Of a stretch of 64,000 nucleotides of DNA, positions 3,666 through 53,936 are shown in pieces. Below the pieces are notes generated by a model. It was not told where the DNA came from. It ran no database searches and was given only the letters and a program-made list of their open reading frames with translations. A program made the translations under genes and the position numbers. The first letter of the stretch is position 1, and each line of letters starts with the position of its first letter. The stretch is from Bradyrhizobium sp. WSM471 (lineage in GTDB: Bacteria > Pseudomonadota > Alphaproteobacteria > Rhizobiales > Xanthobacteraceae), in the NCBI RefSeq assembly GCF_000244915.1, contig NZ_CM001442.1, forward strand, positions 3,596,001-3,660,000, written 5' to 3'.

Positions 3666-3952
3666 TGGACAGCTGCGTGAGCCAATCTTGCAACACGGAA
3701 CCCGATGCGGCCGCTGGTCGCAGTCGCGTCGTCTTGATTCCGACGGCCCCACCTTTATGTGTGAAAGGAACAAGAATCCGGGCCCCTCTGGCGAGGAAGT
3801 CGACGTTGTCGGCAAAACCTCGCGATGTCGGATGACCTGTCCCGCGCGAATGCGATGGATCGGCCGATCGTCGGGCCTTCTTGAGAGTCTCTCCGACCCA
3901 ATCGTCCCCATCGCAGCCCCGTGCGGTCATTTCGCAAGATACGGGAGCAACG

Positions 3953-12784: not shown

Positions 12785-12809
12785 ATTGGCCTCAACAAAA
12801 TGGCCTCAA
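12782..12809. repeat. Tandem 14-base duplication at the cyclase start
   Basis: CAAATTGGCCTCAA is followed at once by CAAAATGGCCTCAA, 13 of 14 identical. On the minus strand each unit supplies a GAGG ribosome-site-like string and a TTG, so the duplication carries two start-like units in different frames. Confidence 0.6.
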
Positions 12810-12888
12810 AAATATGATATTTGGACCAGCGCATCAAAGCACGCAGAGCTGCTTCCGGCCAGCACCGACATTCGTCCCGGCTTTACTC

Positions 12889-13785
12889 TCACTCCCCCTG
12901 GATCCATTCCGCGACGCCACGCCACAATGTGTCGCGGTGGTCCGGGCGGAAGAAGCCGAAATGTCCGATCGCCTTGGCGCCGACGTCGGACGGCTTCACG
13001 TTGAGCACCTCCGGCTTGATCGCGGTAAATCCGCTCGCAAGCAGCTCGACCGCGGGCCGCGTCGCCCAGGGATCGTCGGAGAAGCAGAGTGTGCGCAACT
13101 CGCCCTTGAACTTCGCGAAGTTCTCCAGGGCCGCCAGCTTTGAATCGAAGAGATAACGAGGGCTCGAGACCCACTCGGCCCATTGCAGGAAGACGCCCTT
13201 GGGCAAATCCTCACCGATGCCGGCCCAGCCCGGCGCGTAACCGAGCGCGTGGACGAGCGGCACGCCGACAAAATTCATGAAGGCGAAGACGCGGTATTTT
13301 TCCGGGGACGTCATCAGCCGCCAGGTCGCGGCCTGCGAGGCCACGAACGCGGCGCGCGAAATGTCCGTGTTGTTCGCGATCAGCCCGAGCGCCTGGCCGC
13401 CAAAGGAGTGCCCGACATAGGCCAAGGGCAGGGTGTTGTAGCGCTCGCGCATCCAGTGCACTGCGGCGGTGACGTCGAGCGCGGCCCAGTCCGACATCGA
13501 GGCCTTGAAGCCGACCAGCGATTTCGGCCGGTTGTAGCCGACCATCGCCGGCAGCCGGGAGTCGCCGATGCCGCGGTAGTCGTAGGTCAGGACCGCGCAG
13601 CCGCGATGGGCGAGATATGAGGCAAATCCGCGATAGATTTTTCGCGGGACGGCAGTCGCCGAATTGACCAACACGGCATGACGGTTGGTGCCGCGCGGCA
13701 GGAATAGCGTGCCGGTCAGCGCATACCCGTCGGTCGCCGGGAAGCTGATCTCGTCGATGAAAACGTCGTCCAGTGCCACGCCCAT
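12889..13785 (-). CDS. Alpha/beta hydrolase (serine esterase-like)
   Basis: 298 residues. The nucleophile elbow is GHSFGG and the first-strand motif is RGFASYLAHRGCAVLTYDYRG, typical of alpha/beta hydrolases. A C-terminal His is present in KAIGHFGFFRPDH. The start at 13785 (MGVALDDVFIDE) is preferred; the upstream open frame to 13923 has no hydrolase-like sequence. It overlaps no neighbour and is divergent from the DAHP synthase gene. The substrate is unknown. Confidence 0.82.
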   Translation of the reverse strand: MGVALDDVFIDEISFPATDGYALTGTLFLPRGTNRHAVLVNSATAVPRKIYRGFASYLAHRGCAVLTYDYRGIGDSRLPAMVGYNRPKSLVGFKASMSDWAALDVTAAVHWMRERYNTLPLAYVGHSFGGQALGLIANNTDISRAAFVASQAATWRLMTSPEKYRVFAFMNFVGVPLVHALGYAPGWAGIGEDLPKGVFLQWAEWVSSPRYLFDSKLAALENFAKFKGELRTLCFSDDPWATRPAVELLASGFTAIKPEVLNVKPSDVGAKAIGHFGFFRPDHRDTLWRGVAEWIQGE

Positions 13786-13966
13786 GGGCCGAAGGTATCT
13801 TGCCAGTTTCCAAGCCGTTTCCCAGCAAATGCGAATTTGGCTTTCCCCGCAAGGCTTTGCGGTGCCAAACGGATTTACAACTGGCGGCCGGTGGCCAGCC
13901 TGTGTATAAGGCGACCCTCGCAACCCACAGATCAGGTTGTGCTTTTTGCTTCACGGAGAGATTGCG

Positions 13967-15355
13967 ATGTCCGAGCGGTGGACGCCCGAATCCTGGCGCA
14001 GCAAGCCGGTGCTACAGGTGCCCGACTATCCCGACGCCAAGGCCTTGGCCGACGTCGAGGCGCAGCTTGCGAGCTTTCCGCCGCTGGTGTTCGCGGGCGA
14101 GGCGCGCAATCTGAAGAAGGCGCTGGCGCGGGTCGCGGCCGGAGAGGCGTTCCTGCTGCAGGGCGGCGACTGCGCCGAGAGCTTTGCCGAGCACGGCGCC
14201 AACAACATCCGCGACTTCTTCCGCGTGCTGCTCCAGATGGCGGTCGTGCTGACCTATGCCGGTGCCGTCCCGGTGGTGAAGGTCGGGCGCGTCGCCGGCC
14301 AGTTCGCAAAACCCCGATCCTCGCCGATGGAGAAGATCGACGGTGTCGAGCTGCCGAGCTATCGCGGCGACATCGTCAACGACATCGCCTTCACCAAGCA
14401 AGCGCGCGTCCCTGATCCGCAGCGCCAGCTGATGGCCTATCGCCAGTCGGCGGCGACGCTGAACCTGCTGCGTGCGTTCGCCACCGGCGGCTACGCCAAT
14501 CTCGGCAGCGTGCATCAGTGGATGCTCGGCTTCCTCAAGGACTCGCCGCAGTCCCGCCGCTACAAGGAATTGGCCGACCGCATCTCCGATGCGCTCAATT
14601 TCATGCGCGCCTGCGGCCTCGATCTCGAGGCCCACCCGGAGCTGCGCGCCACCGATTTCTACACCAGCCACGAAGCCCTGCTGCTCGGCTACGAGCAGGC
14701 CATGACCCGGGTCGATTCCACCACCGGCGACTGGTACGCGACCTCGGGTCACATGATCTGGATCGGCGACCGCACCCGTCAGCTCGACCACGGCCACATC
14801 GAATATTTCCGCGGCATCAAGAATCCGATCGGGCTCAAATGCGGCCCATCGCTCAAGCCCGACGAGCTGCTGAAGCTGATCGACGTGCTCAATCCCGACA
14901 ACGAGCCGGGCAGGCTGACGCTGATCGGCCGCTTCGGCTCCGACAAGATCGGCGAGCACCTGCCGAACATGGTCCGCGCCGTGAAGCGCGAGGGAAAAGT
15001 GGTGGTCTGGTCGTGCGATCCCATGCACGGCAACACCATCACCTCGACGTCGGGTTACAAGACGCGGCCCTTCGACCGCATCCTGTCCGAGGTGAAGTCG
15101 TTCTTCGCGATCCACGCCGCGGAAGGCACCCATGCCGGCGGCGTGCATCTGGAGATGACGGGCCAGGACGTCACCGAGTGCCTCGGCGGCGCCCGCGCGA
15201 TCACCGATGAGGATCTCAACGACCGCTATCACACGGTCTGCGATCCCCGGCTCAATGCCGAGCAATCCATCGACATGGCTTTCCTGGTCGCAGAACTGCT
15301 CAAGCAGGAACGCGCCGGCAAAGTCAGGCCGATGCCCGCCGCAGCGGGGCTCTGA
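13967..15355 (+). CDS. Class II 3-deoxy-7-phosphoheptulonate (DAHP) synthase
   Basis: 462 residues, the usual class II length. The enzyme condenses phosphoenolpyruvate and erythrose 4-phosphate, the first step of the shikimate pathway. Characteristic blocks are [64 protein letters not shown] and [15 protein letters not shown]. Class II enzymes are the plant/actinobacterial/alphaproteobacterial type. The start at 13967 ([14 protein letters not shown]) follows CGGAGAG. A diacylglycerol kinase gene follows within five bases. Confidence 0.95.
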
Positions 15356-15359
15356 GACC

Positions 15360-15713
15360 TTGCTACGAATCTGGAAGGCCACGATCAATTCCCGTAACGG
15401 TCTGGCCTTTGCGTTCCGCTCGGAGCAGGCCGTCCGCGAGGAGATCGTTGCGCTCCTCGTGTCGCTGCCGCTTGCGTGGTTCGTCGGCGCGACCGCGATG
15501 CGCGCGGTCGAGCTGATCTGCGCGGTCGCGTTTGTGCTGGTGGTCGAGCTCCTCAATACTGCGATCGAGAAGCTTGCCGACCGGCTGACCATGGATCACG
15601 ACAAGCAGATTGGACGGGTCAAGGACATGGGCTCGGCCGCGGTCGGTGTTGCGCTCCTGATGGCCGGCACGTTCTGGATCATCGCCATCATCGAGCGTTT
15701 AGGATTCCTCTAG
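15360..15713 (+). CDS. dgkA: Diacylglycerol kinase (DgkA family)
   Basis: 117 residues with three hydrophobic helices and the DgkA signature VELLNTAIEKLADR, which holds the catalytic and metal-binding acidic residues. It phosphorylates diacylglycerol in the inner membrane, recycling lipid to phosphatidic acid. No ATG or GTG precedes the conserved LRIWKATINSRNGL region after the DAHP synthase stop, so a TTG at 15360, four bases past that stop, is the most likely start with probable translational coupling. Confidence 0.85.
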   Translation: MLRIWKATINSRNGLAFAFRSEQAVREEIVALLVSLPLAWFVGATAMRAVELICAVAFVLVVELLNTAIEKLADRLTMDHDKQIGRVKDMGSAAVGVALLMAGTFWIIAIIERLGFL

Positions 15714-15742
15714 AGCGCACGTCGCGCTTTAGACTGTTTTTT

Positions 15743-15790
15743 GAGCATGATCTTTTCGGAAAACCGCTTCACACTTTTCCGGATCATGCT
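15743..15790 (+). repeat. Palindromic repeat GAGCATGATC...GATCATGCT
   Basis: About 48 bases: GAGCATGATC and GATCATGCT arms enclose TTTTCGGAAAA and CTTTTCCG. A second copy of the same family lies inverted at 40509-40554. I know this element as a very common intergenic repeat of Bradyrhizobium-type genomes. Here it separates dgkA from nadE. Confidence 0.75.
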
Positions 15791-15804
15791 TTGATCGGAG
15801 CGCC

Positions 15805-17562
15805 ATGACCGAACGTCTCAACGCATTCGCGGTCACGCTCGCCCAGCTCAATCCGACCATGGGCGACATCGAGGGCAATGCCGCGAAGGCGCGCGCGGCG
15901 CGCGTGCAGGCAGCCGCCGACGGCTCCGATCTCGTGCTGTTTCCGGAATTGTTCATCGCCGGCTATCCGCCGGAAGATCTGGTGCAGAAGCCTTCGTTTC
16001 AGGCCGCCTGCCGCGCTGCGATCGAAGCGCTGGCGCGCGAGACCGCTGATGGCGGGCCGGCGATGCTGATCGGCACGCCCTGGGTCGAGGAGGGCGGGCT
16101 CTACAATGCCTGTGCACTGCTCGACGGCGGCCGTATCGCCGGCTTGCGCTTCAAATGCAATCTGCCGAATTACGGCGTATTCGACGAGAAGCGGCTGTTT
16201 TCGCGCGGCCCTGCGGCCGGCCCCGTCACCGTGCGCGGCGTGCGCATCGGTGTGCCGATCTGCGAGGACATCTGGCTGGAGGAGTCCGAGGACTACGAGA
16301 ATGTGGTCGAGACGCTGGCCGAGACCGGCGCGGAGATCATCCTTGTGCCGAACGGATCTCCGTACGCCCGCAACAAGGCGGACGTGCGGTTGTCGGTCGC
16401 GGTCGCGCGCGTCACCGAGAGCGGCCTGCCGCTGGTCTATCTCAACCAGGTTTGCGGCCAGGACGAGCTGGTGTTCGACGGAGCTTCCTTCGCGCTCAAC
16501 GGCGACCTTTCGCTCGCAGCGCAATTGCCGGCATTCGCGGAGAGCATCACCACACTGCGGTTCACGAGAAACGGCGACGATTGGCGCTGCACCGGTCCGA
16601 TCGCCGCGCAGCCCGAGGGCGACCACGCCGACTACGCGGCCTGCGTGCTGGGCTTGCGCGACTACGTCGCCAAGAATGGCTTTCCCGGCGTTCTGCTCGG
16701 GATTTCCGGCGGCATCGATTCCGCGCTGTGCGCTGCCATCGCGGTCGATGCGCTCGGGGCCGATCAGGTGCATGGCGTGATGCTGCCTTATCGCTACACT
16801 GCGGCACACTCGATCGCGGACGCCGGCGAGCTCGCCGGCCATCTCGGCATCCGCTACGAGGTGCTGCCGATCGCGGAGGCGGTGAACGGGTTCGAGACTA
16901 TCCTGTCCGGCGTCTTCAAGAATCTGCCGCCCGATGTCACCGAGGAGAATCTCCAGGCCCGCACCCGCGGCACGTTGCTGATGGCGATCTCCAACAAGAC
17001 CGGGCTGATGGTGGTGACCACAGGCAACAAGTCGGAAATGTCGGTCGGCTACGCCACGCTCTACGGCGACATGAATGGCGGCTTCAATCCGATCAAGGAC
17101 ATCTACAAGACGCAGGTGTTTCGGCTGGCAAGCTTGCGCAATGCGTGGAAGCCCGAGGGGGCGCTGGGGCCGGCCGGCGAGGTGATCCCGCCCGACATCA
17201 TCACGCGTCCGCCGACAGCGGAGCTGCGCGAGAACCAGACCGACCAGGATTCGTTGCCCGCTTACGACGTGCTCGATGCCATCCTGCAGCGTCTGATCGA
17301 GCGCGAAGAGCCGCTCGAGACAATCATTACCGCTGGCTTCGACCGCGAGACGGTCACCCGCATCGATCATCTCCTCAACGTCGCCGAATACAAGCGCCGC
17401 CAGGCCGCGCCCGGCGTCAAGGTCACGGCCAGGAATTTCGGCCGCGACCGCCGCTATCCCATCACCAACCGCTTTCGCGACAAAGGCGAGCAGCTCGCCG
17501 CCCCGGACGAGACGCTGGTGTCGCGCGGGAGCAAAGCCTCGATCGACGCGTTCGAAGGGTGA
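15805..17562 (+). CDS. nadE: Glutamine-hydrolysing NAD+ synthase
   Basis: 585 residues. The N-terminal nitrilase-type glutaminase has its triad Glu48 (LFPELFIAGY), Lys117 (FKCNLPNYGVFDE) and Cys153 (PICEDIW). The C-terminal synthetase has the ATP pyrophosphatase loop SGGIDS (301-306) and TTGNKSEMSVGYATLYGD. It converts deamido-NAD to NAD using glutamine-derived ammonia. It is probably transcribed alone; repeats lie on both sides. Confidence 0.96.
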   Translation: MTERLNAFAVTLAQLNPTMGDIEGNAAKARAARVQAAADGSDLVLFPELFIAGYPPEDLVQKPSFQAACRAAIEALARETADGGPAMLIGTPWVEEGGLYNACALLDGGRIAGLRFKCNLPNYGVFDEKRLFSRGPAAGPVTVRGVRIGVPICEDIWLEESEDYENVVETLAETGAEIILVPNGSPYARNKADVRLSVAVARVTESGLPLVYLNQVCGQDELVFDGASFALNGDLSLAAQLPAFAESITTLRFTRNGDDWRCTGPIAAQPEGDHADYAACVLGLRDYVAKNGFPGVLLGISGGIDSALCAAIAVDALGADQVHGVMLPYRYTAAHSIADAGELAGHLGIRYEVLPIAEAVNGFETILSGVFKNLPPDVTEENLQARTRGTLLMAISNKTGLMVVTTGNKSEMSVGYATLYGDMNGGFNPIKDIYKTQVFRLASLRNAWKPEGALGPAGEVIPPDIITRPPTAELRENQTDQDSLPAYDVLDAILQRLIEREEPLETIITAGFDRETVTRIDHLLNVAEYKRRQAAPGVKVTARNFGRDRRYPITNRFRDKGEQLAAPDETLVSRGSKASIDAFEG

Positions 17563-17610
17563 GGCTGGCGCTTGCGCTGCCGTTTCCACAAGCGAGATCG
17601 GCGTTATTGT

Positions 17611-17765
17611 GCCCTCGCCCCTTGCGGGAGAGGGCAGCTTCGCTGTCGAAGCGAACTCATTCGGGTGAGGGGTCTGTCTCGGCGTACTCGTGTGCACGTG
17701 TGAGCGCGGATCGAACCCCTCATCCGGCGCTTTGCGCCACCTTCTCCCGCAGGGGGAGAAGGGAA
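17611..17765. repeat. Compound hairpin repeat between convergent genes
   Basis: The element begins GCCCTCGCCCC...GGGAGAGGGC, contains GGTGAGGGG facing CCCCTCATCC, a small GGCGC/GCGCC hairpin, and ends in CCTTCTCCC...GGGGGAGAAGG. This is a familiar Bradyrhizobium/Rhodopseudomonas-type intergenic repeat. It sits between convergent nadE and the DUF2865 gene, where the final hairpin could serve as a terminator for either side. Confidence 0.65.
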
Positions 17766-17772
17766 GAGCGAC

Positions 17773-18960
17773 CTACTTCTGCTGTTGGGGCAGGAAGCTC
17801 GGGCCGACCGAACGGATCGGCTTGTTCTCGGAGTTGGCAGGGGTGGCGGTTTCCGCCGGCGGCGTTGCTGCCGGGGCGCCAGTCGTCGTCGTCGCCGGGG
17901 CCGCGCCCTTCTTGGCATTCGCAGGCGTGCCCTTGTTGAGCTGCCGCTGCTGCATCTTCTTGGCGCTCTCCTCGGTGACGATGATGTCACCCTGCTGTTC
18001 GGCCGATGCCTTGTCGTCGGCGGATTTGAGCGCGTCGGCCCAGGTCTGGCCCGCGGCCTTGCAGGAGCAGGACGGGTTGAACTCGCTGCGGAATTTGAAC
18101 GCGGTCGGCAGGGCCGTGTAGGGCTGGCCGCTGGTGGAGACCGCGGAGTTCATGTCCTCGCCGGGATTGCGATGGGTGTAGAGCACGGCTTCGGCGGCCG
18201 GGCACAGCGCCTTGCAGGTCTTCTCGTCGTCGGGGAAGCGCGCCGGCACGGTCGCAAACGAGACCGGGAAATAAGCGCCGTCGCAGGTGCGCACGCACAC
18301 GGTGCGATAGGTGCCTGATTGCGGGCCGAGATCGGACGGCGGCACGCCTTGCGGATTGTTGGGGTTGTTGCCGCCGAACAGATTGCTCAGGAAGTTGCCG
18401 CCGCCTTGCGACTGTGCGGCGTTGGCATATTGCGGGCCGCAATTGTTCTGCGCCAGCGCTGCCAGCACCGAGCGGCGCTGGTTGTCACGCTCGGGGCTGA
18501 AGCCGCCGGGACCGCCGCCGCGCAGGCGTTCGAGATTGCCGGTGATCTGGTCCAGATTGGCGCGCATCTGCTGGATCTGGGTGTTGACCGGACCGCATTG
18601 CGCCGACTGGCCGCTGAACAGCGAGAAGAAGCCGGAGGAATCGCAACCCATGCGCTTGGCCTGCATGGTGACGCGGTCGAGCTCGGCCTGCTGCTTGCTT
18701 TGGGACTCTTGATACCGGCGGATCTGGTCTTCGCGCGCGGGATCACCGCCGCCGCCACGATCGAGACCGGCGAGCTGGCCTTCCAGGCGCGCGCACATCG
18801 GGTTGGGTCCGAGCCCGTTCTGGCCAGGCTGAGGTGGCGGTCCCGGCGGGCCGGCCTGTGCGAACGCGTTAGTGGCGAGCGCGACCGTGCTCAAGAGCAC
18901 GGCGCAGGCAAGGATCGAGCGAGCACGGGAGAGAAACAAAAATTCAGGCATATCCGCCAT
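17773..18960 (-). CDS. DUF2865 domain secreted protein
   Basis: 395 residues from the start used. A signal peptide (ILACAVLLSTVALATNAFAQA) is followed by a Pro/Gly-rich segment, a coiled-coil-like region, and the DUF2865 core: TYRTVCVRTCDGAYFPVSF, ARFPDDEKTC, LYTHRNPGEDMNSAVS and FNPSCSCK, with many paired cysteines suggesting disulphides. The C-terminus is Ala/Thr/Pro-rich and low complexity. The family is found mainly in Hyphomicrobiales and is functionally unknown, probably periplasmic or cell-wall associated. Starts at 18960 or 18951 are both possible; sequence upstream to 19038 is not signal-like. Confidence 0.85.
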   Translation of the reverse strand: MADMPEFLFLSRARSILACAVLLSTVALATNAFAQAGPPGPPPQPGQNGLGPNPMCARLEGQLAGLDRGGGGDPAREDQIRRYQESQSKQQAELDRVTMQAKRMGCDSSGFFSLFSGQSAQCGPVNTQIQQMRANLDQITGNLERLRGGGPGGFSPERDNQRRSVLAALAQNNCGPQYANAAQSQGGGNFLSNLFGGNNPNNPQGVPPSDLGPQSGTYRTVCVRTCDGAYFPVSFATVPARFPDDEKTCKALCPAAEAVLYTHRNPGEDMNSAVSTSGQPYTALPTAFKFRSEFNPSCSCKAAGQTWADALKSADDKASAEQQGDIIVTEESAKKMQQRQLNKGTPANAKKGAAPATTTTGAPAATPPAETATPANSENKPIRSVGPSFLPQQQK

Positions 18961-19090
18961 TCTAGCGAGGTCACGGCCACGCGTGATGTGGGGGGCCGAA
19001 GCGCGCCCTCCCATAGCCGCTTCCTGCGGCATCGTCACGTCGTTTCAGAGGCCAGCGATTGGGCCTAAAGTACGCCAGTTCCGAGCGAAT

Positions 19091-19396
19091 TCAGCGCTGG
19101 CAGGTGATTGCGACATATTCATCGCAATGGCCATGGGAGCAGTTTGCGCCGGATTTGGGGACAGAGCCGGTAATTTCGTCGGGATCGACCCGGCGATAGG
19201 CCGAAGCCTGGGCAAAATCGCGTGACTGGCAGTAGGTGCGGGCGACCTGCGCGCCGCATTTGTCGCTTTTGGCCAGGCACTGATCGACGCCGTAGCCATC
19301 CGCCTGGTTGGGGATGATGAAGACGCGGGTCTCGGCGAGAGCGCTGGAAACGACAAGGATGGAGGCGCAGGAAATGAGCGCGAGCAATGATCGCAT
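19091..19396 (-). CDS. Small secreted Cys-rich hypothetical protein
   Basis: 101 residues. A clear signal peptide (LLALISCASILVVSSALA, cleavage likely before ETRV) is followed by a mature part with six cysteines (QCLAKSDKCGAQVARTYC, then NCSHGHCDEYVAITC). Even cysteine number and export suggest a disulphide-stabilised periplasmic protein. It belongs to the same strand block as the DUF2865 gene, 131 bases upstream of its start. The start at 19396 is chosen for the signal peptide. No named family. Confidence 0.7.
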   Translation of the reverse strand: MRSLLALISCASILVVSSALAETRVFIIPNQADGYGVDQCLAKSDKCGAQVARTYCQSRDFAQASAYRRVDPDEITGSVPKSGANCSHGHCDEYVAITCQR

Positions 19397-19688
19397 GAAA
19401 ACACCGGGGGCAAAAAACAGGAACTGCCAGTTCCAGAATGGGCTCAAATGGTTAAGGATCTGAACCATCTAGCCGTAGCGGCTGCGCATTGCGGAGATAA
19501 AACGGCATTTTCGCGGCTCTCTTGACGCGGGGCCGCCTCATAGCCCATATGTTCCGTTATGAACGGTCTCCTCGTCATTTGCGCCATTTGCCGCGAGATT
19601 ACGAGCTAGCGATTCGCTGGCTGGAGCCGTCTTTTCTCAAAACCATTGAGAGCACTGGACGCCCGGCCAACAGCCGACGGGTATCCTT

Positions 19689-21071
19689 ATGGAATTGCGC
19701 CTCTACGATACGCTGAGCCGGGAAAAGCGCACCTTCGTGCCGCTCGATGCCAAGGACGTCCGCATGTATGTCTGCGGACCGACGGTCTATGACTTCGCCC
19801 ATATCGGCAATGCCCGGCCGGTGATCGTGTTCGACGTGCTGTTCCGGCTGCTGCGCCATCTCTACGGCGCGGCGCACGTCAAATATGTCCGCAACATCAC
19901 CGACGTTGACGACAAGATCAACGACCGTGCCGCGCGTGATTTCCCCGGCCTGCCGCTGAACGAGGCGATCCGGAAAGTCACGGAGCAGACCGGCAAGCAG
20001 TTTCACGCCGACGTCGACGCACTCGGTGCGCTGCGGCCGAACGTCGAGCCGCGCGCCACCGAGCATATCGGCGAGATGCGCGAGATCATCGAGCGGTTGG
20101 TCGCCGGCGGCTTTGCCTATGTCGCCGAGGATCACGTGTTATTCTCGCCGCAGGCGATGAACGCGGCCGATGCCGGGCTGCCGCGCTATGGCGCGCTGTC
20201 CAACCGCTCGCTGGACGAGATGGTTGCCGGCGCCCGCGTCGATGTCGCGCCGTACAAAAAGGGCAACACCGACTTCGTGCTGTGGAAGCCGTCCAAGCCC
20301 GGCGAGCCGTCATGGCCATCACCGGCCGGCATCGCCGCGCAGGGGCGCCCGGGCTGGCACGTCGAGTGCTCGGCCATGGCCTGGAAGCATCTCGGCGAGC
20401 ACTTCGACATCCATGGCGGCGGCATCGATCTCGTGTTTCCGCATCACGAGAACGAGGTTGCACAAACCTGCTGCGCCTTCCATCGGGAGCGCATGGCGAA
20501 CTACTGGATGCATAACGGCTTCCTGCAGGTCGAGAGTGAGAAGATGTCGAAATCGCTCGGCAACTTCGTCACGATTCACGAGCTGCTCGCGGACTGGCCG
20601 GGCGAAGTGCTGCGCCTGAATATGCTGAAGACGCATTACCGCTCGCCGATCGACTGGACGATGAAGTCGCTAGAGGAGAGCGCCAGGACGCTCGACGACT
20701 GGTATCGGGTTGCGGCTGACGTCGTACCCGGCAAGCCCGCCCCGTCAGTGATCGAGCCGCTGCTCGACGACCTCAACACGCCGCTGGCCATCGCGGCGCT
20801 GCATGGCTTGCGCGGCAGCGACGTTGGTGCTCTCGCGGGTTCGTTGCGTCTGCTCGGCTTTCTCTCCGAGAGTGCCGCGCAGTGGGAAGGACGCAAGCAG
20901 CAGGCGAGCGGCGTCGATGCCAAGGAAGTGGAGCGCCTGATCTCGGAGCGGACGGCGGCGCGTGCGCGCAAGGACTTTGCGGAGTCCGATCGTATCCGCG
21001 ATCTGCTTGCCGCGATGGGCGTTGCGATCAAGGACTCCAAGGAAGGCACGACCTGGGAGGTCGCACGATGA
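19689..21071 (+). CDS. cysS: Cysteinyl-tRNA synthetase
   Basis: 460 residues. Class I motifs are HIGN (38-41) and KMSKS (285-289). Zinc ligands are expected in [18 protein letters not shown] and FPHHENE. It charges tRNA-Cys. A weak promoter-like TTGACG at 19522 with CATATG 18 bases later lies upstream. The stop overlaps the start of a 37-codon gene by four bases (ATGA), beginning a tight run through cimA. Confidence 0.96.
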
Positions 21072-46265: not shown

Positions 46266-48050
46266 TTACCGCAGCGGCTTCTTCAGCAGCGAGAAGCGGT
46301 CCGGATCCAGCCCCATCGACGGTTGCAGCATCGGGGCTTCGACGTTGGAGAGCGTCTTCGCGGGCGGCGCCGAGAATACCGGATCGTTCGGCACGTCGCG
46401 CTGCGAGGTGGCACCGCGCCAGCGCTCGAGCACGGCACCGACGAAATGCATGTCGTGACCGGAGGTGACCGAGGGCACGCTGCTGATCGTCGCTTCGCCG
46501 CGCGGCAATTGATGCGGCGGCACCTCCTTGAAGCGCAGCCGCGTCGGCAGCGCGACACCTTCGCCGAAGGCCAGCACTTCGCGGGTGCCGAGCGAAGGTA
46601 CGAACGAGAGCAGGTTCGCGGCCGCGTCCGACACCGCGGCGCGCAGCAGCGCCTGGTCGCGCTCGTTGGCAAGGCGCATCGTGAACAGCGTGTTGCACTG
46701 GGAGATGATGGTGGCGTCGAGCTCGGCCGGACGCTGGGTGATGAGGCCGAGATAGACGCCGTATTTGCGGCCTTCCTTGGCGATGCGCGACACCGCCTTG
46801 CGAGTCGGCCCGAAGCCGACATTGCGATCGGCGGAGGCGTAGCGGTGAGCCTCTTCGCAGACGAACAGCATCGGCGAAACGCCGTCGCTCCACAGGCCGA
46901 AGTCGAAGGCCATGCGGCAAAGCACCGAGACGACGGAATCGATGACCTCGGCCGGGAAGCCGGCGAGCTGCATCACCGTCATCGGCTTGCCGTTGGCCGG
47001 CAGGCGGAACAGATGACTGATCACCTCGGCCATGGTGTCACCGCCGACATTGGCGTTGTCGAACATGAAGGCGTAGCGCGGGTCGTTGCGGACCGCTTCG
47101 ATGCGGGAGATCAGCTTGTGATATATGATGCGCGAGGAGCGGTTCTCGAGCTTGCCCATGCGCTCGTCGATCAGCGACATCAGATCGACCAGGCGATAGG
47201 GCACCGGCGTATCGACGGTGTAGCCGATCTGCTTGGGATCGATGCGCTTCAGGCCGATGCGGTCGGTGTTCTGATATTGGGTGTAGACGCCCTTGGCGAG
47301 CGGAATCACCTCGGCGAGGACGTCGAGCTCCTCGGGCACGCCGGCGCGGCCGCCGAACAGCACGTCGACGATTTCCTCGAAATTGAACAGCCAGAACGGC
47401 AGTTTCAGATTGCGCGGGTTGAGCACCAGCGCGCGGTCGCCGAAGCAGCGGCCATATTCGTTGTGCACGTCGAGCAGGAAGATGCGCAGGTTCGGGCGCG
47501 CCTTGAGGATCTCGTTGAGCAGCAGCGACACACCGGTCGATTTGCCGACGCCGGTCGATCCCAGCACCGCGAAGTGCTTGGAGAGCATCTCCTCGATGTC
47601 GACATAGGCGACGACGGAGCTGTCCTGCTGAAGGAAGCCGACATTGATCTGGTCGGAACCGGTGGGCGCGTAGATCGTGCGCAGCTCCTGGCTCGTGATC
47701 AGGTCGACCGAATCACCGATGGTCGGATAGTTGGTGACGCCGCGCTGGAATTTGGCCTTGCCAGTCGCGTTGAGGATTTCGCCGAGCAGGTCGACCGAGG
47801 CGATGGCGATCAAATTGTCGTTGCTCGAGAGGTTCTCGCAGGACACCTCGGTGATCATCGCGACGATGACCGAGCTGGCGCAGCGAATACTGACGAAGCG
47901 GCCGACGGTTGCCCGCACTTCCGAGACCGGCATCCGGCTTTCAGCCAGCAGCCCGACCCGGGCGAGCGATCCGCGAACCGAAATCACGCGTCCAAAGGAT
48001 GTCACAATGAATGAACCTGACAAGAGCAACGGGTTGCCCGGACTATGCAC
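46266..48050 (-). CDS. HerA-like ATPase (DUF87 helicase/translocase)
   Basis: 594 residues. An N-terminal beta-barrel (HAS-barrel-like, about 20-110) precedes a FtsK/HerA RecA-type ATPase: Walker A GSTGVGKST (about 163-171), Walker B MLFVCEEAHRY, and a sensor region ITQRPAELDATIISQCNT. HerA proteins form hexameric DNA pumps, often with the nuclease NurA or, in defence systems, other partners; none is adjacent. The apparent GTG start at 48050 lacks a clear ribosome site; GTG at 48005 (VTSFGRVISVRGS) is an alternative. It is divergent from a small HExxH protein gene. Confidence 0.86.
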   Translation of the reverse strand: MHSPGNPLLLSGSFIVTSFGRVISVRGSLARVGLLAESRMPVSEVRATVGRFVSIRCASSVIVAMITEVSCENLSSNDNLIAIASVDLLGEILNATGKAKFQRGVTNYPTIGDSVDLITSQELRTIYAPTGSDQINVGFLQQDSSVVAYVDIEEMLSKHFAVLGSTGVGKSTGVSLLLNEILKARPNLRIFLLDVHNEYGRCFGDRALVLNPRNLKLPFWLFNFEEIVDVLFGGRAGVPEELDVLAEVIPLAKGVYTQYQNTDRIGLKRIDPKQIGYTVDTPVPYRLVDLMSLIDERMGKLENRSSRIIYHKLISRIEAVRNDPRYAFMFDNANVGGDTMAEVISHLFRLPANGKPMTVMQLAGFPAEVIDSVVSVLCRMAFDFGLWSDGVSPMLFVCEEAHRYASADRNVGFGPTRKAVSRIAKEGRKYGVYLGLITQRPAELDATIISQCNTLFTMRLANERDQALLRAAVSDAAANLLSFVPSLGTREVLAFGEGVALPTRLRFKEVPPHQLPRGEATISSVPSVTSGHDMHFVGAVLERWRGATSQRDVPNDPVFSAPPAKTLSNVEAPMLQPSMGLDPDRFSLLKKPLR

Positions 48051-48278
48051 GGCCGTCGCTGGACAAACGGTTAAGCGGCAGGCGCCGGCGCTTCGTTAAA
48101 TCCGCGACAATTCGGGTGCGAGGTTTGTTCCAATACATACTTGTGGGCAGAAACGGCGAGAATGCTGCTTTTTCCCGGCCGGTTGGTGTGCGGGTGGGTT
48201 AAGGAATAGTTTACCATATGCCAAGAGGCGGAGTGGAATCGGTGCGGCCCGAAGCGGCCGTGGAGAGAGACGTAGCGG

Positions 48279-48911
48279 ATGTCGGAAAAGATCGTGAAGC
48301 AGCGGGTAGGCCCGGGCATCTACCTGCTTCGCTTCAAGACACAATATGAGCTGACGTCGACCTTTCTGCGTGTGCAGGAGCACTACGAGTCGCCAGAGTT
48401 CCACGGGCGCGTTTTCTCGCTAGAGCAGTACATGGACTGGTATGCGGAACAATACGGCAATTTCACCTACTATCAGGACTGGTCCGGTTTCAACGTGCCT
48501 TCGACGGCATTCGCTCCGTTCTATACCGGCGCGTTCGATCCGCTCACGCGGAAGGAGAGGCGTCTGCTTCGCTTTTTCGAACGGCTGCGCGGACGCTTCT
48601 ACGTGATCGGGATCTACCAAGGCCACGGCAGCACGCTGACGCACGAACTCGCACATGCGCTGTTCTTCACCGATGCCGGCTACCGCAAGGGAGTTCGTGA
48701 GGCGATGCGCTCATACGATACCCGTGCGCTCGAGCGGCAGATTGCAAAGGCCGGTTACGCGCAACATGTCATCGAGGACGAGGCACAGGCCTATCTGATT
48801 GCGCCGTCGGGTGAGCTCGGTGCCGCGTCGAAACCGCTGGTGCCGCTGCGCCGGCAATTGCGTGCGCTGTTCCGCGAGCATGCGACGAAGCTGTCAGTGC
48901 CGGCAACCTAG
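48279..48911 (+). CDS. Small putative zinc metallopeptidase (HELAH motif), unknown family
   Basis: 210 residues with no signal peptide. A HExxH motif is seen as THELAHALFFTDAGYR (His122, Glu123, His126), and acidic residues at VIEDEAQAYL (Glu166, Glu168) sit about 40 residues later, where gluzincin-type enzymes such as ImmA place the third zinc ligand. The N-terminal half is Tyr/Phe-rich (YMDWYAEQYGNFTYYQDW). I do not recognise the family, and the peptidase role is inferred from the motif alone. Its stop overlaps that of the convergent alpha/beta hydrolase at a shared CTAG. Confidence 0.65.
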   Translation: MSEKIVKQRVGPGIYLLRFKTQYELTSTFLRVQEHYESPEFHGRVFSLEQYMDWYAEQYGNFTYYQDWSGFNVPSTAFAPFYTGAFDPLTRKERRLLRFFERLRGRFYVIGIYQGHGSTLTHELAHALFFTDAGYRKGVREAMRSYDTRALERQIAKAGYAQHVIEDEAQAYLIAPSGELGAASKPLVPLRRQLRALFREHATKLSVPAT

Positions 48912-50308
48912 GCCAAGCTGCGCCGGATGAAGCCGATCGTTCTGGTCTGACGAAAGTAATTGCAGTGCCAAACGTCGGGCGAGTTACCGAAATCCTCGAC
49001 GCCCTGGATGGCGAGCGGGAAGCCCGTCGCTCCCAGGTCCGACATCGAGACCGTATCGACAACGAGATCGTTCTTGCTGGGAAAGATTTCATCGGCGGCC
49101 AGGTCGCCGATCCGCAGTGCCCTGAAATTTTTCCAGAACTGCCAGCCGGGATTCTCCGTCTCGAAATTCGACTGGACGACGAAGTAGGCGGGCTGCGTCG
49201 TACAAGGACCGAGCCGCAGCAGATTGAGCTCGTAATTGTTCTCGATCATGGATTGCCCGAACAACCCCGGAACGAGCGCGACCAGCCCATCAAGGAGCGG
49301 CGTGTGTGCAAGCGTTCCGGTGACGGTCATCACCACCTCGACCAGCTTGCCGGCGACCCACAGGAACGGATTGGCGCCACCGGCGAGCTGTAACGTCTTC
49401 TCGGCGAAGGTACCGATATTGGAAAGCAGGCTCAGTGCGTGCTGGAGCTTGTCGGGCGCGGCGAGCGAGGTGCCGTGGAGTGGCGAGCCCGCAAACACGA
49501 CGCGGGTCGTCGCGGCGAGCGAGCGGCCGAACGCCTCCAGCCACCACCGCACGATCAAGCCGCCGCGGCTATGGGCGACGACGTCAACTTGTCCCGTTGC
49601 ATCGACGAATGCGCGTCCGAGCTCGAGCGCATTCAGAACCGGGCTGACGGCAAGGGTCGCGTGCTCGAAAACGAGAACCTGGTCGTACTTGTCGGGTCCG
49701 TTCAGGGCGGCCCCGAGAAACGCCTGGCCATCGGCAGTCGCCTGGAACTCGCCGATCATGTTGACGGCGTTCGAGAAGGTCCCGTGGACCAGCAGCAGGG
49801 TCCGCCCCTTGAATGGTCCATGGGCATCGGCAGCGTCGATGACGAAGTTGGACGGACCGCCCCGCAACTGGCGTATGTGTGAGCGCAGCGAAACATCGAT
49901 TGCGGAGTTGAGTCGCATGTCGATGGCGCCGATGGCCGCGGCAGCCCTGTTCGGCTGGAGTCTTGGAAACTCCTTGGTCAGGATCACCGTCTGATCGGGA
50001 AGCGGCGGCGGCCCTCCCGCCCGCCGTGCGCGACGACGGCGCTGCGGCGCTTCCGCGCGTGCCGGAACGCCGTCATACCATCGCAGCACACCGTTTTCCT
50101 CGACCAGGGAAGCCGCGAGGATGTTGTCGTCGGGTGTGTTGGAAGCGCGCCGCCTGCGTCGGCGCAGGCCGGCTACGGAGTCCATCCTCTCGTCATGATC
50201 GACATAGAGGGGCACAAACAGGTCATCGTTATCCTCGGCCGCCTTGATCTGCGACAGGAAACGTCCGGGGTCTTCCGCAACAAACTGTGACATGTTCGAT
50301 GCCGTCAT
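48908..50308 (-). CDS. Alpha/beta hydrolase of the type found in CHAT-associated proteins (DUF7379-like)
   Basis: 466 residues. The first ~130 are charged with two Arg-rich runs (RRRRRR, QRRRRARR). The hydrolase domain starts at LLLVHGTFSNAVNM. The catalytic set is complete: Ser247 in VDVVAHSRGGLIVRWW, Asp414 in SKNDLVVD, His448 in DVWHCNYF. The FEHATLAVSPVLNALELG block and the overall pattern match, from memory, DUF7379 hydrolase domains, usually seen fused to CHAT or caspase-like proteases. Here it is the third gene of an operon with separate CHAT-like and transglutaminase-like proteins; starts and stops overlap by four bases. Lipase, esterase or peptidase activity is open. Confidence 0.8.
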   Translation of the reverse strand: MTASNMSQFVAEDPGRFLSQIKAAEDNDDLFVPLYVDHDERMDSVAGLRRRRRRASNTPDDNILAASLVEENGVLRWYDGVPARAEAPQRRRRARRAGGPPPLPDQTVILTKEFPRLQPNRAAAAIGAIDMRLNSAIDVSLRSHIRQLRGGPSNFVIDAADAHGPFKGRTLLLVHGTFSNAVNMIGEFQATADGQAFLGAALNGPDKYDQVLVFEHATLAVSPVLNALELGRAFVDATGQVDVVAHSRGGLIVRWWLEAFGRSLAATTRVVFAGSPLHGTSLAAPDKLQHALSLLSNIGTFAEKTLQLAGGANPFLWVAGKLVEVVMTVTGTLAHTPLLDGLVALVPGLFGQSMIENNYELNLLRLGPCTTQPAYFVVQSNFETENPGWQFWKNFRALRIGDLAADEIFPSKNDLVVDTVSMSDLGATGFPLAIQGVEDFGNSPDVWHCNYFRQTRTIGFIRRSLA

Positions 50309-51405
50309 TCATTGATGATCGGAAGCGGGGTGACGTTCAGGCTTCGTGCGTGCTGGATGTCCAGCAGGCTGTCGAATTCCTTTTGGCTGCGCAGATTGGC
50401 CCGTCCTTCGGTTTGAGCGTCCTTGAAGCTGTAGGCCCCGGTCAGGTAGGTGGCTTCCAGCATCACGAGGTCGCCCGACGTCACATAGGCCATGATCTCG
50501 GCGTAACTCATCTTGGTGAGTCTCCAGCCGTAAGGATCGACGTAGCACAAGCCCGCATTGCGGGTCGCGGCATCGCCGACGGTCGGCACCGTGGCGGGCA
50601 CCTTCGCCACGCCCACGAAGTCGTCGTGCGCCTCCTCGGACCGCCAGTAGCCGACGAAGGCATGACCGGTGAGCAACACCACGACCGGGAAGATGCCGAC
50701 ATATTCGAGGCACGAGGCGAGCAACAGCGCCAGGTCGATGCAGGTGCCGGTGTTGGAAGCGACGATCTCGCTGGGGGTGCGCAGCCGCTGCGTCTGCTCC
50801 GAATAGGCGGGGGGAGGGTTGATGTACTGCAGACGATATTCGTTGACGAGCGCGGTCCAGATGGCCTGAACCTGGCGATCGACGGCGTGCTGTTCGCCCT
50901 GCTGGTAGCCGTCGAACCCTGCGCCGGGGTCGTCCAGAATGCCGACCAGGTAACGCCGGGAGGCGTGGATGATCGCAAGGATCGCCGGATCCCTCGGCAA
51001 CACGAAGGACGGCAGCCAGGGATTGTTCTTGGTGTCGTCGAGCCATTCGTCCACGGGTATCAACGTGACGCGCCTGGTGTCCTCGAACACCGTCTGTCCC
51101 CCACACGTCACCTTGACGTAAACGGCGGACTGCACTCGCTCGTGCAGCGAACGGCTCAAGCTGGCGGTGAGAGGGATGATCACGTCGGAGGACAGCGGCA
51201 GCTGCAACTCCTCCATGAGCGGGATCGTGTAACGGTAGGGGTAGTTCTCGGCGCCGACGCAGAGTTCGACCTGAATCGTGATCGCTTCGACTGGCTTCTG
51301 GGTCAGCCGCGTCAGCGTCAATTTGTCGAGCAAGGGCCTGTTGTTGTGCAGGAGGGAATAGTTGATTGCCTCCGCCACGTCCAGGTCGACCTGGATCGGG
51401 ATCAT
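50305..51405 (-). CDS. Stand-alone transglutaminase-like protein with beta-sandwich N-terminus
   Basis: 366 residues. An N-terminal all-beta domain (about 1-125) is followed by a helical linker (NNPWLPSFVLPRDPAILAII; FDGYQQGEQHAVDRQ; LQYINPPPAYSEQTQ) and a transglutaminase-like core with Cys222 in NTGTCIDLALLLASC, His248 in LLTGHAFVGYW and Asp290 in YVDPYGW. Layout and spacing strongly recall the N-terminal module of very large DUF4011/DUF3320-type helicases (from memory), here detached from any helicase. The ATG at 51405 overlaps the CHAT-like stop, and its stop overlaps the hydrolase start. The triad is intact, so proteolytic or amidase-like activity is plausible. Confidence 0.78.
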   Translation of the reverse strand: MIPIQVDLDVAEAINYSLLHNNRPLLDKLTLTRLTQKPVEAITIQVELCVGAENYPYRYTIPLMEELQLPLSSDVIIPLTASLSRSLHERVQSAVYVKVTCGGQTVFEDTRRVTLIPVDEWLDDTKNNPWLPSFVLPRDPAILAIIHASRRYLVGILDDPGAGFDGYQQGEQHAVDRQVQAIWTALVNEYRLQYINPPPAYSEQTQRLRTPSEIVASNTGTCIDLALLLASCLEYVGIFPVVVLLTGHAFVGYWRSEEAHDDFVGVAKVPATVPTVGDAATRNAGLCYVDPYGWRLTKMSYAEIMAYVTSGDLVMLEATYLTGAYSFKDAQTEGRANLRSQKEFDSLLDIQHARSLNVTPLPIINE

Positions 51406-52625
51406 CTGGCTGCCCTCTTCTTCCGGGGAGACGCCTTCTTGGCGGAACGCGATCTCGCCGCCGATTTCATGATCGACTCGCTGCCTGGCGCGAAGATGCT
51501 TCGTCCCATCCAGATCACGATTGACGTGCCGTGAACCTTGTCCGACGGCATCGCCTCCCAAGCCTTCAGGAATGCATCCGGGATCGAAAGGATCAGTCCG
51601 TCCTTTCCGTGAAACCAGTTCCAGTAGAATGCCTGGAAGAACAGCTCCGCCACCTCGTCGTCGATCTCGTCGAGAAATCCGAGCGCCACGTGGGCCTTGT
51701 TTCTGACCAGCTCGCGCGCGATGCGTGCGCCGGAATAATAGAGATTGAGTGTCACTATCCGGGGTGGCGTCGGACCCACGAGGATCTTGGCAAGGTCGCC
51801 GTAGGGAACGGGTAGCTCGCTCTCGTGACCTTCGCGAAGGATCATTCCGTCTGGCAGCCGTCCGGTGGAGTCGATGAGCGTGTCGAACAGCGGCTTGTTC
51901 TTCGTCTTCATGTCCACGTAGAAGTCTTCGACGATCCAGGCGGCCTGATGGGTATCTATGCCTGTGACGTGGATCGCCTCCCACCTCGAGCCGTGGATTG
52001 TCTTGGCGAGCTCACTTGTCTGGGGCGTGCGAACGATGGTCCGGTATTTGTCGTTGTCCGGTTTGTCGATCGCACCGATCGCGACGCTGATGCGCTTTTC
52101 CTCGTCCGCGAATTCGTATTTATCCCAGAAGCGTCCGGGCGCGCTCTCGACGAAGAGCATACCTGTCGGCGGGTGTGGGGTGACCTGCGCGAGCCCGTTG
52201 TCGAACAGGCGCGAGATCAAGGTGCTGTGGTAACGGCCTTCCGCGCGCGTGCCGGCGCTGAGCAGATATTCCCAGGGAATTTCACAGGCCGCTTCATGGA
52301 TCGCACAGATCCTCGCATCCGTGCGATCCCAGTCGTGCACCTCGATCTCGATACGTTCGGCTGTGGCCAGCTCGCGCAAACGCTTGGTCGACACGCCCAC
52401 GCCTGCGAGGTCCTTGACGGCGCGCTCGGCGATGGATTTGCGCAACTCGACGTCGAATGCCCAGCGCGAGCGCACCCGCAGAAGGTATGTCCATTCCTGC
52501 GCGAGGCGCGCGAGTCGTTCGGGATTGGTGACGGGCGTATCGGGGACACCGGCCGCGCGAATCGTTGCGATGCCTTTACCCGGCGAACTGCCGGCCGGTT
52601 CCGTGCTCCCGGACTGCTTGGCCAT
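51402..52625 (-). CDS. CHAT-fold protein without catalytic His and Cys
   Basis: 407 residues. CHAT (caspase-like) features are IHEAACEIPWEYLL (about 109-122), a central strand WEAIHVTGIDTHQAAW (about 214-229), RIVTLNLYYSGARIARELV (about 287-305) and the closing block AELFFQAFYWNWFHGKDGL. Active CHAT proteases have GHG after the first strand and a Cys in LNACxSG; here these read TGI and LNLYYSG, so both dyad residues seem replaced. It is probably a pseudo-protease scaffold or sensor. The basic C-terminus (SRSAKKASPRKKRAAR) could bind nucleic acid. ATG at 52625 has GGGGGA upstream. First gene of a three-gene overlapping operon. Confidence 0.72.
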   Translation of the reverse strand: MAKQSGSTEPAGSSPGKGIATIRAAGVPDTPVTNPERLARLAQEWTYLLRVRSRWAFDVELRKSIAERAVKDLAGVGVSTKRLRELATAERIEIEVHDWDRTDARICAIHEAACEIPWEYLLSAGTRAEGRYHSTLISRLFDNGLAQVTPHPPTGMLFVESAPGRFWDKYEFADEEKRISVAIGAIDKPDNDKYRTIVRTPQTSELAKTIHGSRWEAIHVTGIDTHQAAWIVEDFYVDMKTKNKPLFDTLIDSTGRLPDGMILREGHESELPVPYGDLAKILVGPTPPRIVTLNLYYSGARIARELVRNKAHVALGFLDEIDDEVAELFFQAFYWNWFHGKDGLILSIPDAFLKAWEAMPSDKVHGTSIVIWMGRSIFAPGSESIMKSAARSRSAKKASPRKKRAAR

Positions 52626-52682
52626 CGAGCTTCCCCCAACTCCCGGCGCACCGAGCGATTGGCTGCAGCTCGGGTTCCCAAC

Positions 52683-52712
52683 AATACACCTTGAGATAGC
52701 GTCCGCCGTCAA
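52683..52712 (-). promoter_or_regulatory. Candidate sigma-70 promoter of the CHAT-like operon
   Basis: On the minus strand TTGACG (52712-52707), an 18-base gap and TGTATT (52688-52683) lie about 60 bases before the CHAT-like start codon, in a region free of other genes. Confidence 0.4.
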
Positions 52713-52832
52713 GATAAACCGGGGGAGGATGACAAATCGCCGCGCGCAAGTGTCTCGCGCCTTCCGCATAGCTGCGAATTGGCGGCGACCGATTGAGTAG
52801 TATCTTGGTAGCACGCGGCTGGAACGAATTTG

Positions 52833-52859
52833 TTGACGAGACCTAATCATTTGTACATT
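52833..52859 (+). promoter_or_regulatory. Candidate promoter of the catechol 2,3-dioxygenase-type gene
   Basis: TTGACG at 52833-52838 is followed after 15 bases by TACATT (or after 16 by ACATTA). The -10 region is covered by the inverted repeat at 52848-52869, suggesting repression by steric block. Confidence 0.4.
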
Positions 52860-52869
52860 AGTACAAATG
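52848..52869. promoter_or_regulatory. Operator-like inverted repeat, site 1 (CATTTGTAC-N4-GTACAAATG)
   Basis: Nine-base perfect arms around ATTA, overlapping the candidate -10 element. The half-site GTACAAA recurs at 58038-58053 and 58191-58206, upstream of the molybdenum hydroxylase and the 6-hydroxynicotinate-reductase-like gene. Confidence 0.6.
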
Positions 52870-52973
52870 AACCGGCAGCCTGGTGCCGCCTACGGGCGCG
52901 TGAGCGGATTGCAGCCGGCGCCAGATCGCGGGATCCGGTCCAGCGTATCGCAAGCCACGCCTTGGAGGACACC

Positions 52974-53936
52974 ATGCAGCCCGAACCGATCCTCGATCTC
53001 GCTCATCTCGGCCACATGGAGCTGCTGACGCCGAAGCCGGACGAGAGCCTGAAGTTCTTCGTCGACGTGATGGGCATGACCGTCAGCGGGCAAAAGGGCG
53101 AGTCGGTCTATTTGCGCGGCTGGGACGACTATGAGCGCTATTCGCTCAAACTGACGGCGTCGAAGACATCGGGCATGGAGCACATGGCGCTGCGCGCGCG
53201 CAGCCAGCAGGCGCTGGAGCGCCGCGTTGCGGCGCTGAAGGGATCCGGCTTCGATATCGGCTGGATCGACGGCGACATGGGGCAGGGGCCGACCTTCCGC
53301 TGCCGCGATCCCGATGGACACATCGTCGAGCTCTATTACGAGACCGAATGGTATCAGGCGCCGCCCGAGCTGAAGCCCGCGCTGAAGAACCAGGCGCAGC
53401 GCTTTCCCGCGCGCGGCGTCAACGTCCGGCGCCTCGACCATCTCAACTGCCTCGCCGTGGACATCAAAGCCAACCGCGAGTTCTTCGAAAATTATCTCGG
53501 CTGCCGCCTCACCGAGCAGATCGTGCTCAACGACGGCCGCGAAGCGGCGATGTGGCTGACGATGTCGAACAAGAGCTACGACTTTGCCTACTCGCTTGAT
53601 CACTCCGGCACGCCCGGCCGCTTCCACCACGTCACCTACGCCCTCGACAGCCGCGAGGAGATCCTGCGCGCCGCCGACATCTTCCTGGAGAACGACATCC
53701 ACATCGAGACCGGCCCGCACAAGCACGCGATCCAGCAGACCTTCTTCCTCTATGTCTACGAACCCGGCGGCAACCGCGTCGAAGTCGCCAATGCCGGCGC
53801 TCGCCTCATCCTCGCGCCCGACTGGAAGCCGATCGTGTGGACGGAAGAGGAACGCAAGAAGGGGCAGGCGTGGGGCCTGAAGACGATTGAGTCCTTCCAC
53901 ACGCACGGCACGCCGCCGGTGGAGCACAAGAAGTAG
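52974..53936 (+). CDS. Extradiol ring-cleavage dioxygenase, catechol 2,3-dioxygenase type (VOC superfamily)
   Basis: 320 residues with two VOC modules, the size of XylE-type catechol 2,3-dioxygenases. Iron ligands in the C-terminal module are His156 (LDHLNCLAVD), His219 (FHHVTYALD) and Glu270 (GNRVEVANAG). It would open a catechol-type ring next to the diol. The exact substrate is unknown; by its operator and neighbours it may act in the same pathway as the molybdenum hydroxylase. ATG at 52974 with TTGGAGGA upstream. It is convergent with the hydroxylase large subunit, four bases away. Confidence 0.86.
   Translation: MQPEPILDLAHLGHMELLTPKPDESLKFFVDVMGMTVSGQKGESVYLRGWDDYERYSLKLTASKTSGMEHMALRARSQQALERRVAALKGSGFDIGWIDGDMGQGPTFRCRDPDGHIVELYYETEWYQAPPELKPALKNQAQRFPARGVNVRRLDHLNCLAVDIKANREFFENYLGCRLTEQIVLNDGREAAMWLTMSNKSYDFAYSLDHSGTPGRFHHVTYALDSREEILRAADIFLENDIHIETGPHKHAIQQTFFLYVYEPGGNRVEVANAGARLILAPDWKPIVWTEEERKKGQAWGLKTIESFHTHGTPPVEHKK

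Follow-up and report, generated by a model that had tools for sequence, protein, structure and literature searches.

What becomes of a protein with the fold of a CHAT protease once the catalytic dyad has gone, and what does it do beside enzymes that keep theirs? The question is raised by a locus of Bradyrhizobium sp. WSM471, lying in a 64,000-nucleotide stretch (contig NZ_CM001442.1, positions 3,596,001 to 3,660,000; the window hereafter) of a 7.78-Mb single-contig genome. An earlier note on this DNA described three overlapping minus-strand genes, here A, B and C, and proposed that A is a dead CHAT protein serving two active hydrolases. It missed a convergent fourth gene, D (48279-48911, + strand), which proves to be a member of the same cassette. 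We propose that A, B, C and D form one mobile unit whose likeliest purpose is a response to biological conflict, a reading that we hold tentatively and give slightly less than an even chance. In window coordinates its parts are as follows.

51402..52625, - strand: gene A, pseudo-CHAT, 407 aa (open reading frame, family alignment, predicted fold and structural matches)
50305..51405, - strand: gene B, transglutaminase-like (papain/PNGase-fold), 366 aa (Cys222/His248/Asp290)
48908..50308, - strand: gene C, DUF7379 (PF24096) alpha/beta hydrolase, lipase-like, 466 aa (Ser247/Asp414/His448)
48279..48911, + strand: gene D, HExxH (zincin-like) protein, 210 aa (HELAH 122-126, DEAQAY 167-172)
48218..52827, no strand: inserted cassette D+C+B+A, about 4.6 kb (comparison with empty sites)

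Results

The A/B and B/C junctions in the window are in-frame ATGA overlaps on the minus strand, and both they and the gene coordinates agree with the earlier description; C and D converge, their 3' ends overlapping by 4 bases. The coupling recurs elsewhere. In the 11 split loci examined, where A and B are separate genes, a 4-base in-frame overlap joins A to B in all 11 and B to C in nine, with the sequence ATGA or, in L040, TTGA; in eight fused loci the AB|C junction has such an overlap (ATGA or GTGA) in five. No promoter-like site was found, and terminators were no more frequent than in shuffled sequence.

The case for A as a CHAT protein is structural. A Pfam search placed no family above threshold on A itself, and PF12770 CHAT was found in some of its homologs, a homolog search having returned 136 relatives. 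The predicted structure is confident (pLDDT 87.3, pTM 0.86), shows a CHAT/caspase-like alpha/beta fold and has CHAT/caspase-clan proteins as its best structural matches; a search of a viral structure library gave a single match with an E-value (E) below 0.001, at a low TM-score (0.29). The assignment rests on the fold because a profile comparison of A with four active CHAT domains aligned 95 columns only, at a probability of 59%. In A the positions of the CHAT His and Cys are occupied by Ile223 and Tyr296, and the family carries the motifs HVTG[IV]DTHQ and LNLYYSGAR. Across two aligned sets of A proteins the catalytic His occurs in 0 of 82 and 0 of 77 (0 of 159 in total), and the Cys in 0 of 82 and 2 of 77. 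By alignment and model, A is best described as a CHAT-fold pseudoenzyme and not a CHAT protease, its dyad lost family-wide, which bears out the suspicion that it was dead. Two divergent fused A proteins (L029 and L030) retain Cys at the CHAT Cys position (TCYSAQ and SCYSAQ) and have lost the His; they are possible intermediates in the loss of the dyad.

Might A have gained a new activity instead, through the conserved replacement residues His219, Asp224, Asn294 and Ser298? H219, G222, D224, N294, S298 and G299 are each conserved in 82 of 82 sequences, much as an active site would be. The same conservation suits a binding site equally well, however, invariant residues are also numerous elsewhere in A, and the clan His is wanting throughout, with the Cys kept in only two proteins. 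We consider a new activity very unlikely.

B belongs to the transglutaminase-like superfamily by its papain-like fold and Cys-His-Asp/Glu residues, which lie where the earlier note had put them. The Cys and His of B never vary among 77 aligned fused A-B proteins; at the third position 56 of these have Asp and 17 have Glu. B scores against the NCBIfam model antiphage_ProA with an E of 2.1e-61, far below the cut-off for whole ProA, and its best stretch covers only positions 1-245 of 1903. Its distant relatives form the N-terminal part of proteins of about 2000 aa, one of them shown to be a DUF4011/DUF3320 helicase, in line with the earlier note's statement that such a module normally opens these helicases.

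A and B belong together, being fused in deep branches of the family and separate and translationally coupled in the window. They share one open frame in 7 of the 16 carrier genomes of the genus, and a profile search with the fused form found 255 proteins, most of the 120 listed being about 800 aa long; a model of one natural fusion has a strand-rich stretch N-terminal to the B catalytic domain. A tree of B has 42 fused and 45 split proteins, sampled from parts of the lists (one in three of the fused, one in two of the split) under length filters, with L082 left out. It requires two changes between fused and split states, which is also the minimum forced by its well-supported branches, and its deepest branches are all fused under a midpoint root. 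Because the tree is midpoint-rooted, we can only infer the direction of change, with fusion as the probable ancestral state and the split as derived. The idea of a split system, raised by the earlier note, survives in this unexpected sense for A and B; as a three-gene description it fell short, since the unit has a fourth gene.

C matches PF24096 (DUF7379) at 110.1 bits against a cut-off of 33 (E 1.7e-31), which places it in that family; its matches to solved structures are weak and to lipases, the best at an E of 0.019. Ser247, Asp414 and His448, present as claimed, are the same in all 19 C proteins of the operon type that were compared and in all three relatives fused to CHAT. We take them to be the catalytic triad, following the earlier note's assignment and knowledge of the fold. 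The expected link of such hydrolases to CHAT was also found within the genus, where three of the relatives of C that were scanned (1117, 1194 and 1876 aa) also carry, in the same chain, CHAT domains with His and Cys intact. The shortest, a PF24096-DUF7363-CHAT protein encoded at L041 (5766-9119, - strand) in a genome that has no cassette (G027), looks like a single-chain analogue of the cassette.

D has an HExxH motif and a conserved acidic residue downstream, as in zincin metallopeptidases; HExxH and DExQ are invariant in 14 of 14 sequences, and the downstream DExQAY is conserved. It matched no Pfam, PADLOC or NCBIfam family above threshold, and we predict from its sequence that D is a zincin metallopeptidase. 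B and C, then, keep apparently complete catalytic residues and D its HExxH. Relatives of D occur in Xanthomonas phage XacN1 (31% identity over 90% of D), in an uncultured 642-kb phage record (34% over 79%) and in a 608-kb viral contig (50%), all three keeping HExxH and DExQ; PHROG 1365 is a weak match. Among these phage relatives (L113, L114 and L115), the one in XacN1 is labelled ABC transporter ATP-binding protein, a name that its HExxH motif does not bear out.

The phage relatives of D invite a different account, in which D, a protein that huge phages also have, would act on A-B-C, neutralising or activating it, rather than work with it, in the manner of a toxin-antitoxin or anti-defence system. 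It would suit the convergent orientation of D, its three phage and viral relatives and the carriers in which it is absent or reduced to a remnant. Against it, purifying selection acts on D as on the other genes, D accompanies A-B-C at different genomic places, and some distant A-B-C loci have no recognisable D; we think this account quite unlikely. D was found in 13 of 195 same-genus genomes, all among the 16 carriers of A-B-C. In G147 (L035) the match is a remnant of 34 residues beside a retained A-B-C, searches at L029, L030, L038 and L082 did not find D, and a search of 297 genomes of the order returned the window's own copy only. Since it is absent from some carriers and a remnant in G147, D is not strictly required.

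The earlier note had named two checks, a CHAT-like structure for A and recurrence of the gene order. Both came out in its favour, the order being shared by 16 genomes within the genus and by one from a different family. A is present in 16 of the 195 same-genus genomes. B matches 35 and C 32 of them; the B matches at 44% identity or more, and the 16 best C matches, come from the same 16 genomes as A, and the three genes are adjacent and in the order A-B-C at all 16 mapped loci. This co-occurrence is beyond chance. Elsewhere in the order, A-B was found in 1 of 297 genomes besides the window (G223, of another family), where a 763-aa fusion overlaps the C gene behind it by 4 bases, and 349 genomes of the phylum yielded no further copy; these searches scored two to three candidates per genome and may miss divergent copies. 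Other matches in the order and phylum cover the transglutaminase part only, mostly in frames of about 2000 aa, and a scan of genome contigs gave eight loci only, all Bradyrhizobium.

Comparison with genomes that have no cassette delimits the insert and identifies two flanking genes, both outside it.

46266..48050, - strand: herA-like flanking core gene (present in 60 of 60 sampled genus genomes)
52830..53936, + strand: flanking conserved gene, presumably VOC/extradiol-dioxygenase from its look (empty-site comparison)

The two are direct neighbours in 23 of the 28 non-carrier loci fetched, the other five having no VOC match within the fetched stretch; the loci were chosen by the best 30 matches to herA across 60 genomes and are skewed to close relatives. 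The right edge is sharp, with DNA identity to the window resuming at 52828 or 52829 in 18 of 23 loci and at 52954-52964 in five. On the left, identity ends at 48217 in five of the 23 and earlier, down to 48112, in the rest; four loci show both outermost edges, which there stand 75-80 bases apart. The only genes in the insert are D, C, B and A, and at 62.0% guanine plus cytosine against 64.2% for the window it has no clear foreign signature.

In carriers the herA-VOC interval contains the cassette alone or with extra genes. At L027, L028, L032, L033 and L034 the cassette stands near the same herA with extra DNA between, the VOC gene falling inside the fetched stretch in four of them (neighbour positions are from protein-to-DNA mapping). 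The interval looks like an integration site in the genus. Neither herA nor VOC lies in the fetched stretch at L036, L037, L040, L029, L030 and L038; D accompanies A-B-C at the first three, and L082 belongs to another family.

HerA itself was considered as a fifth component and rejected, being a core gene (60 of 60) that adjoins VOC when the cassette is absent. The herA-like protein matches PADLOC HerA models at an E of 8.6e-98 and NCBIfam HerA_antiphage_2 at 212 bits, under its cut-off of 850.

All four genes are under purifying selection, with ratios of nonsynonymous to synonymous substitution rates (dN/dS) of 0.04-0.35 over ten pairwise comparisons, or nine for D (0.06-0.18), one value being undefined and dS saturated in distant pairs. 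Of the four genes, A ranks first by dN in all ten comparisons and by dN/dS in seven, a pattern suggestive of a protein that meets a changing partner. Between G147 and the window, C has a dS of 0.25 and A of 0.76, with 96% and 72% identity respectively. As C is there so much closer to the window's copy than A is, the sequences suggest recombination inside the cassette.

Far from the cassette, a terC RNA (RF03067) lies at 3770-3840 of the window (+ strand), at 48.8 bits against a gathering score of 39.9.

Discussion

The cassette resembles, as far as its sequences tell, undescribed bacterial machinery for self-defence or cell death. In PMC7159879, dead caspase-fold domains of bacterial conflict systems are predicted to be regulators or peptide-binding modules, the inactive ones being read as dominant-negative regulators or peptide-binding domains, and alpha/beta hydrolases are described as pairing with caspase-like domains in such systems. 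PMC3710099 sees in the transglutaminase module of the giant helicases a possible line of defence that works by cleaving proteins.

We propose a model in which A, which we infer to be a sensor or scaffold, would bind a trigger, whether a peptide, a protein or some other ligand, in the region of its lost active site and leave it uncut. A may hold or release B, a putative thiol hydrolase (peptidase, amidase or cross-linker) that would then work on a protein, perhaps C or D. The effector downstream would be C, with a lipid or ester as its probable substrate, and D, as a predicted metallopeptidase, may regulate the system or answer to it; the order in which B, C and D would act is a guess. The outcome would be a conflict response, for example phage-triggered growth arrest or death. 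It is tempting to go further and see a mobile immune cassette built round a pseudo-caspase, with the CHAT site turned throughout the family into a conserved ligand-binding site, the role of peptidase handed to the fused transglutaminase, a dedicated lipase-like executioner and a phage-related zincin as regulator or bait. That fuller version we find possible and somewhat doubtful.

Several results weigh against a conflict role or the cassette as we draw it. PADLOC models match none of A, B, C and D, and none of 10 nearby genes at L029, L036, L038, L040 and L082. The search for neighbouring defence genes, which the earlier note had suggested as a check, came up empty, none adjoining the cassette besides the core herA-like flank, and at L034 the nine open reading frames between herA and VOC are metabolic, transport or regulatory by Pfam. 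No relative of A was found in viral contigs, nor of A-B in plasmid or phage records: a plasmid search gave 78 records, the 20 listed matching only query residues 430-821, the transglutaminase part (14 of them annotated DUF4011 or DUF3320), and a phage record search with A-B gave one, again for the transglutaminase part only. The ancestral state of the A-B fusion depends on the midpoint root, the zincin assignment of D rests on its motif, and D is a remnant in G147 and was looked for without success in G223 and the three carriers that diverge most.

Part of this list speaks for a quieter role, in which the genes are accessory enzymes for protein or envelope quality control or niche adaptation: A would recruit, B and D process proteins, and C hydrolyse lipids or esters. 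The 10 nearby genes and the plasmid and phage searches accord with it, as do citrate synthase and ROK genes near L029, a haem peroxidase near L082, and transport, major facilitator superfamily and amidohydrolase genes near L034. Sporadic presence (16 of 195), several insertion places and the phage relatives of D stand against it, and relatives of the CHAT fold, the transglutaminase and DUF7379 sit in conflict-type proteins. We regard it as unlikely, if less so than the toxin-antitoxin-like account of D, and retain conflict response as the preferred purpose. As a separate observation, a gene with Tc-toxin TcA-type Pfam domains (12500-19999, - strand) lies near the distant fused A-B-C locus L038.

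What the locus offers is a compact family in which a strictly conserved dead domain is fused or coupled to a thiol hydrolase with intact residues. A-B, the accompanying hydrolase and the phage-related zincin together take up about 4.6 kb, so that the pseudo-caspase question can be tested on one small clone.

Among known systems, those built on VMAP or MoxR-vWA come close. According to PMC7159879, they too encode a caspase-clan domain with an alpha/beta hydrolase and, on rare occasions, include transglutaminase-like peptidases, as the cassette does in B; many of their caspase domains in effector position are inactive, and A too has lost its dyad. Unlike them, the insert contains no NTPase, vWA, MoxR, VMAP or iSTAND gene (the rest of the genome was not searched), the dead caspase fold and the transglutaminase are one fused protein in deep branches, and there is a zincin-like fourth gene. 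The PF24096-DUF7363-CHAT fusions such as that at L041 share with C the hydrolase family, the triad and the link to CHAT, but are one polypeptide with intact CHAT motifs (HVSGHG and LNACQAG) and no transglutaminase domain by Pfam. The DUF4011/DUF3320/MTES_1575 helicases and antiphage_ProA have an N-terminal transglutaminase-like module homologous to B, whereas B has no DUF4011, superfamily 1 helicase, nuclease or winged helix-turn-helix part and has a dead CHAT as its partner. The CRISPR-linked proteases SAVED-CHAT and Craspase Csx29 (TPR-CHAT) have SAVED and TPR sensor parts; A differs in having no His-Cys dyad and in its length of only 407 aa. In the open-access literature, with subscription journals mostly outside, we found no description of the A-B-C-D gene set. 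What appears to be new is the combination, a family-wide pseudo-CHAT fused to a transglutaminase and accompanied by DUF7379 and a phage-related zincin; the parts have relatives, and we see the cassette as a variant of caspase/hydrolase conflict modules rather than a wholly new type.
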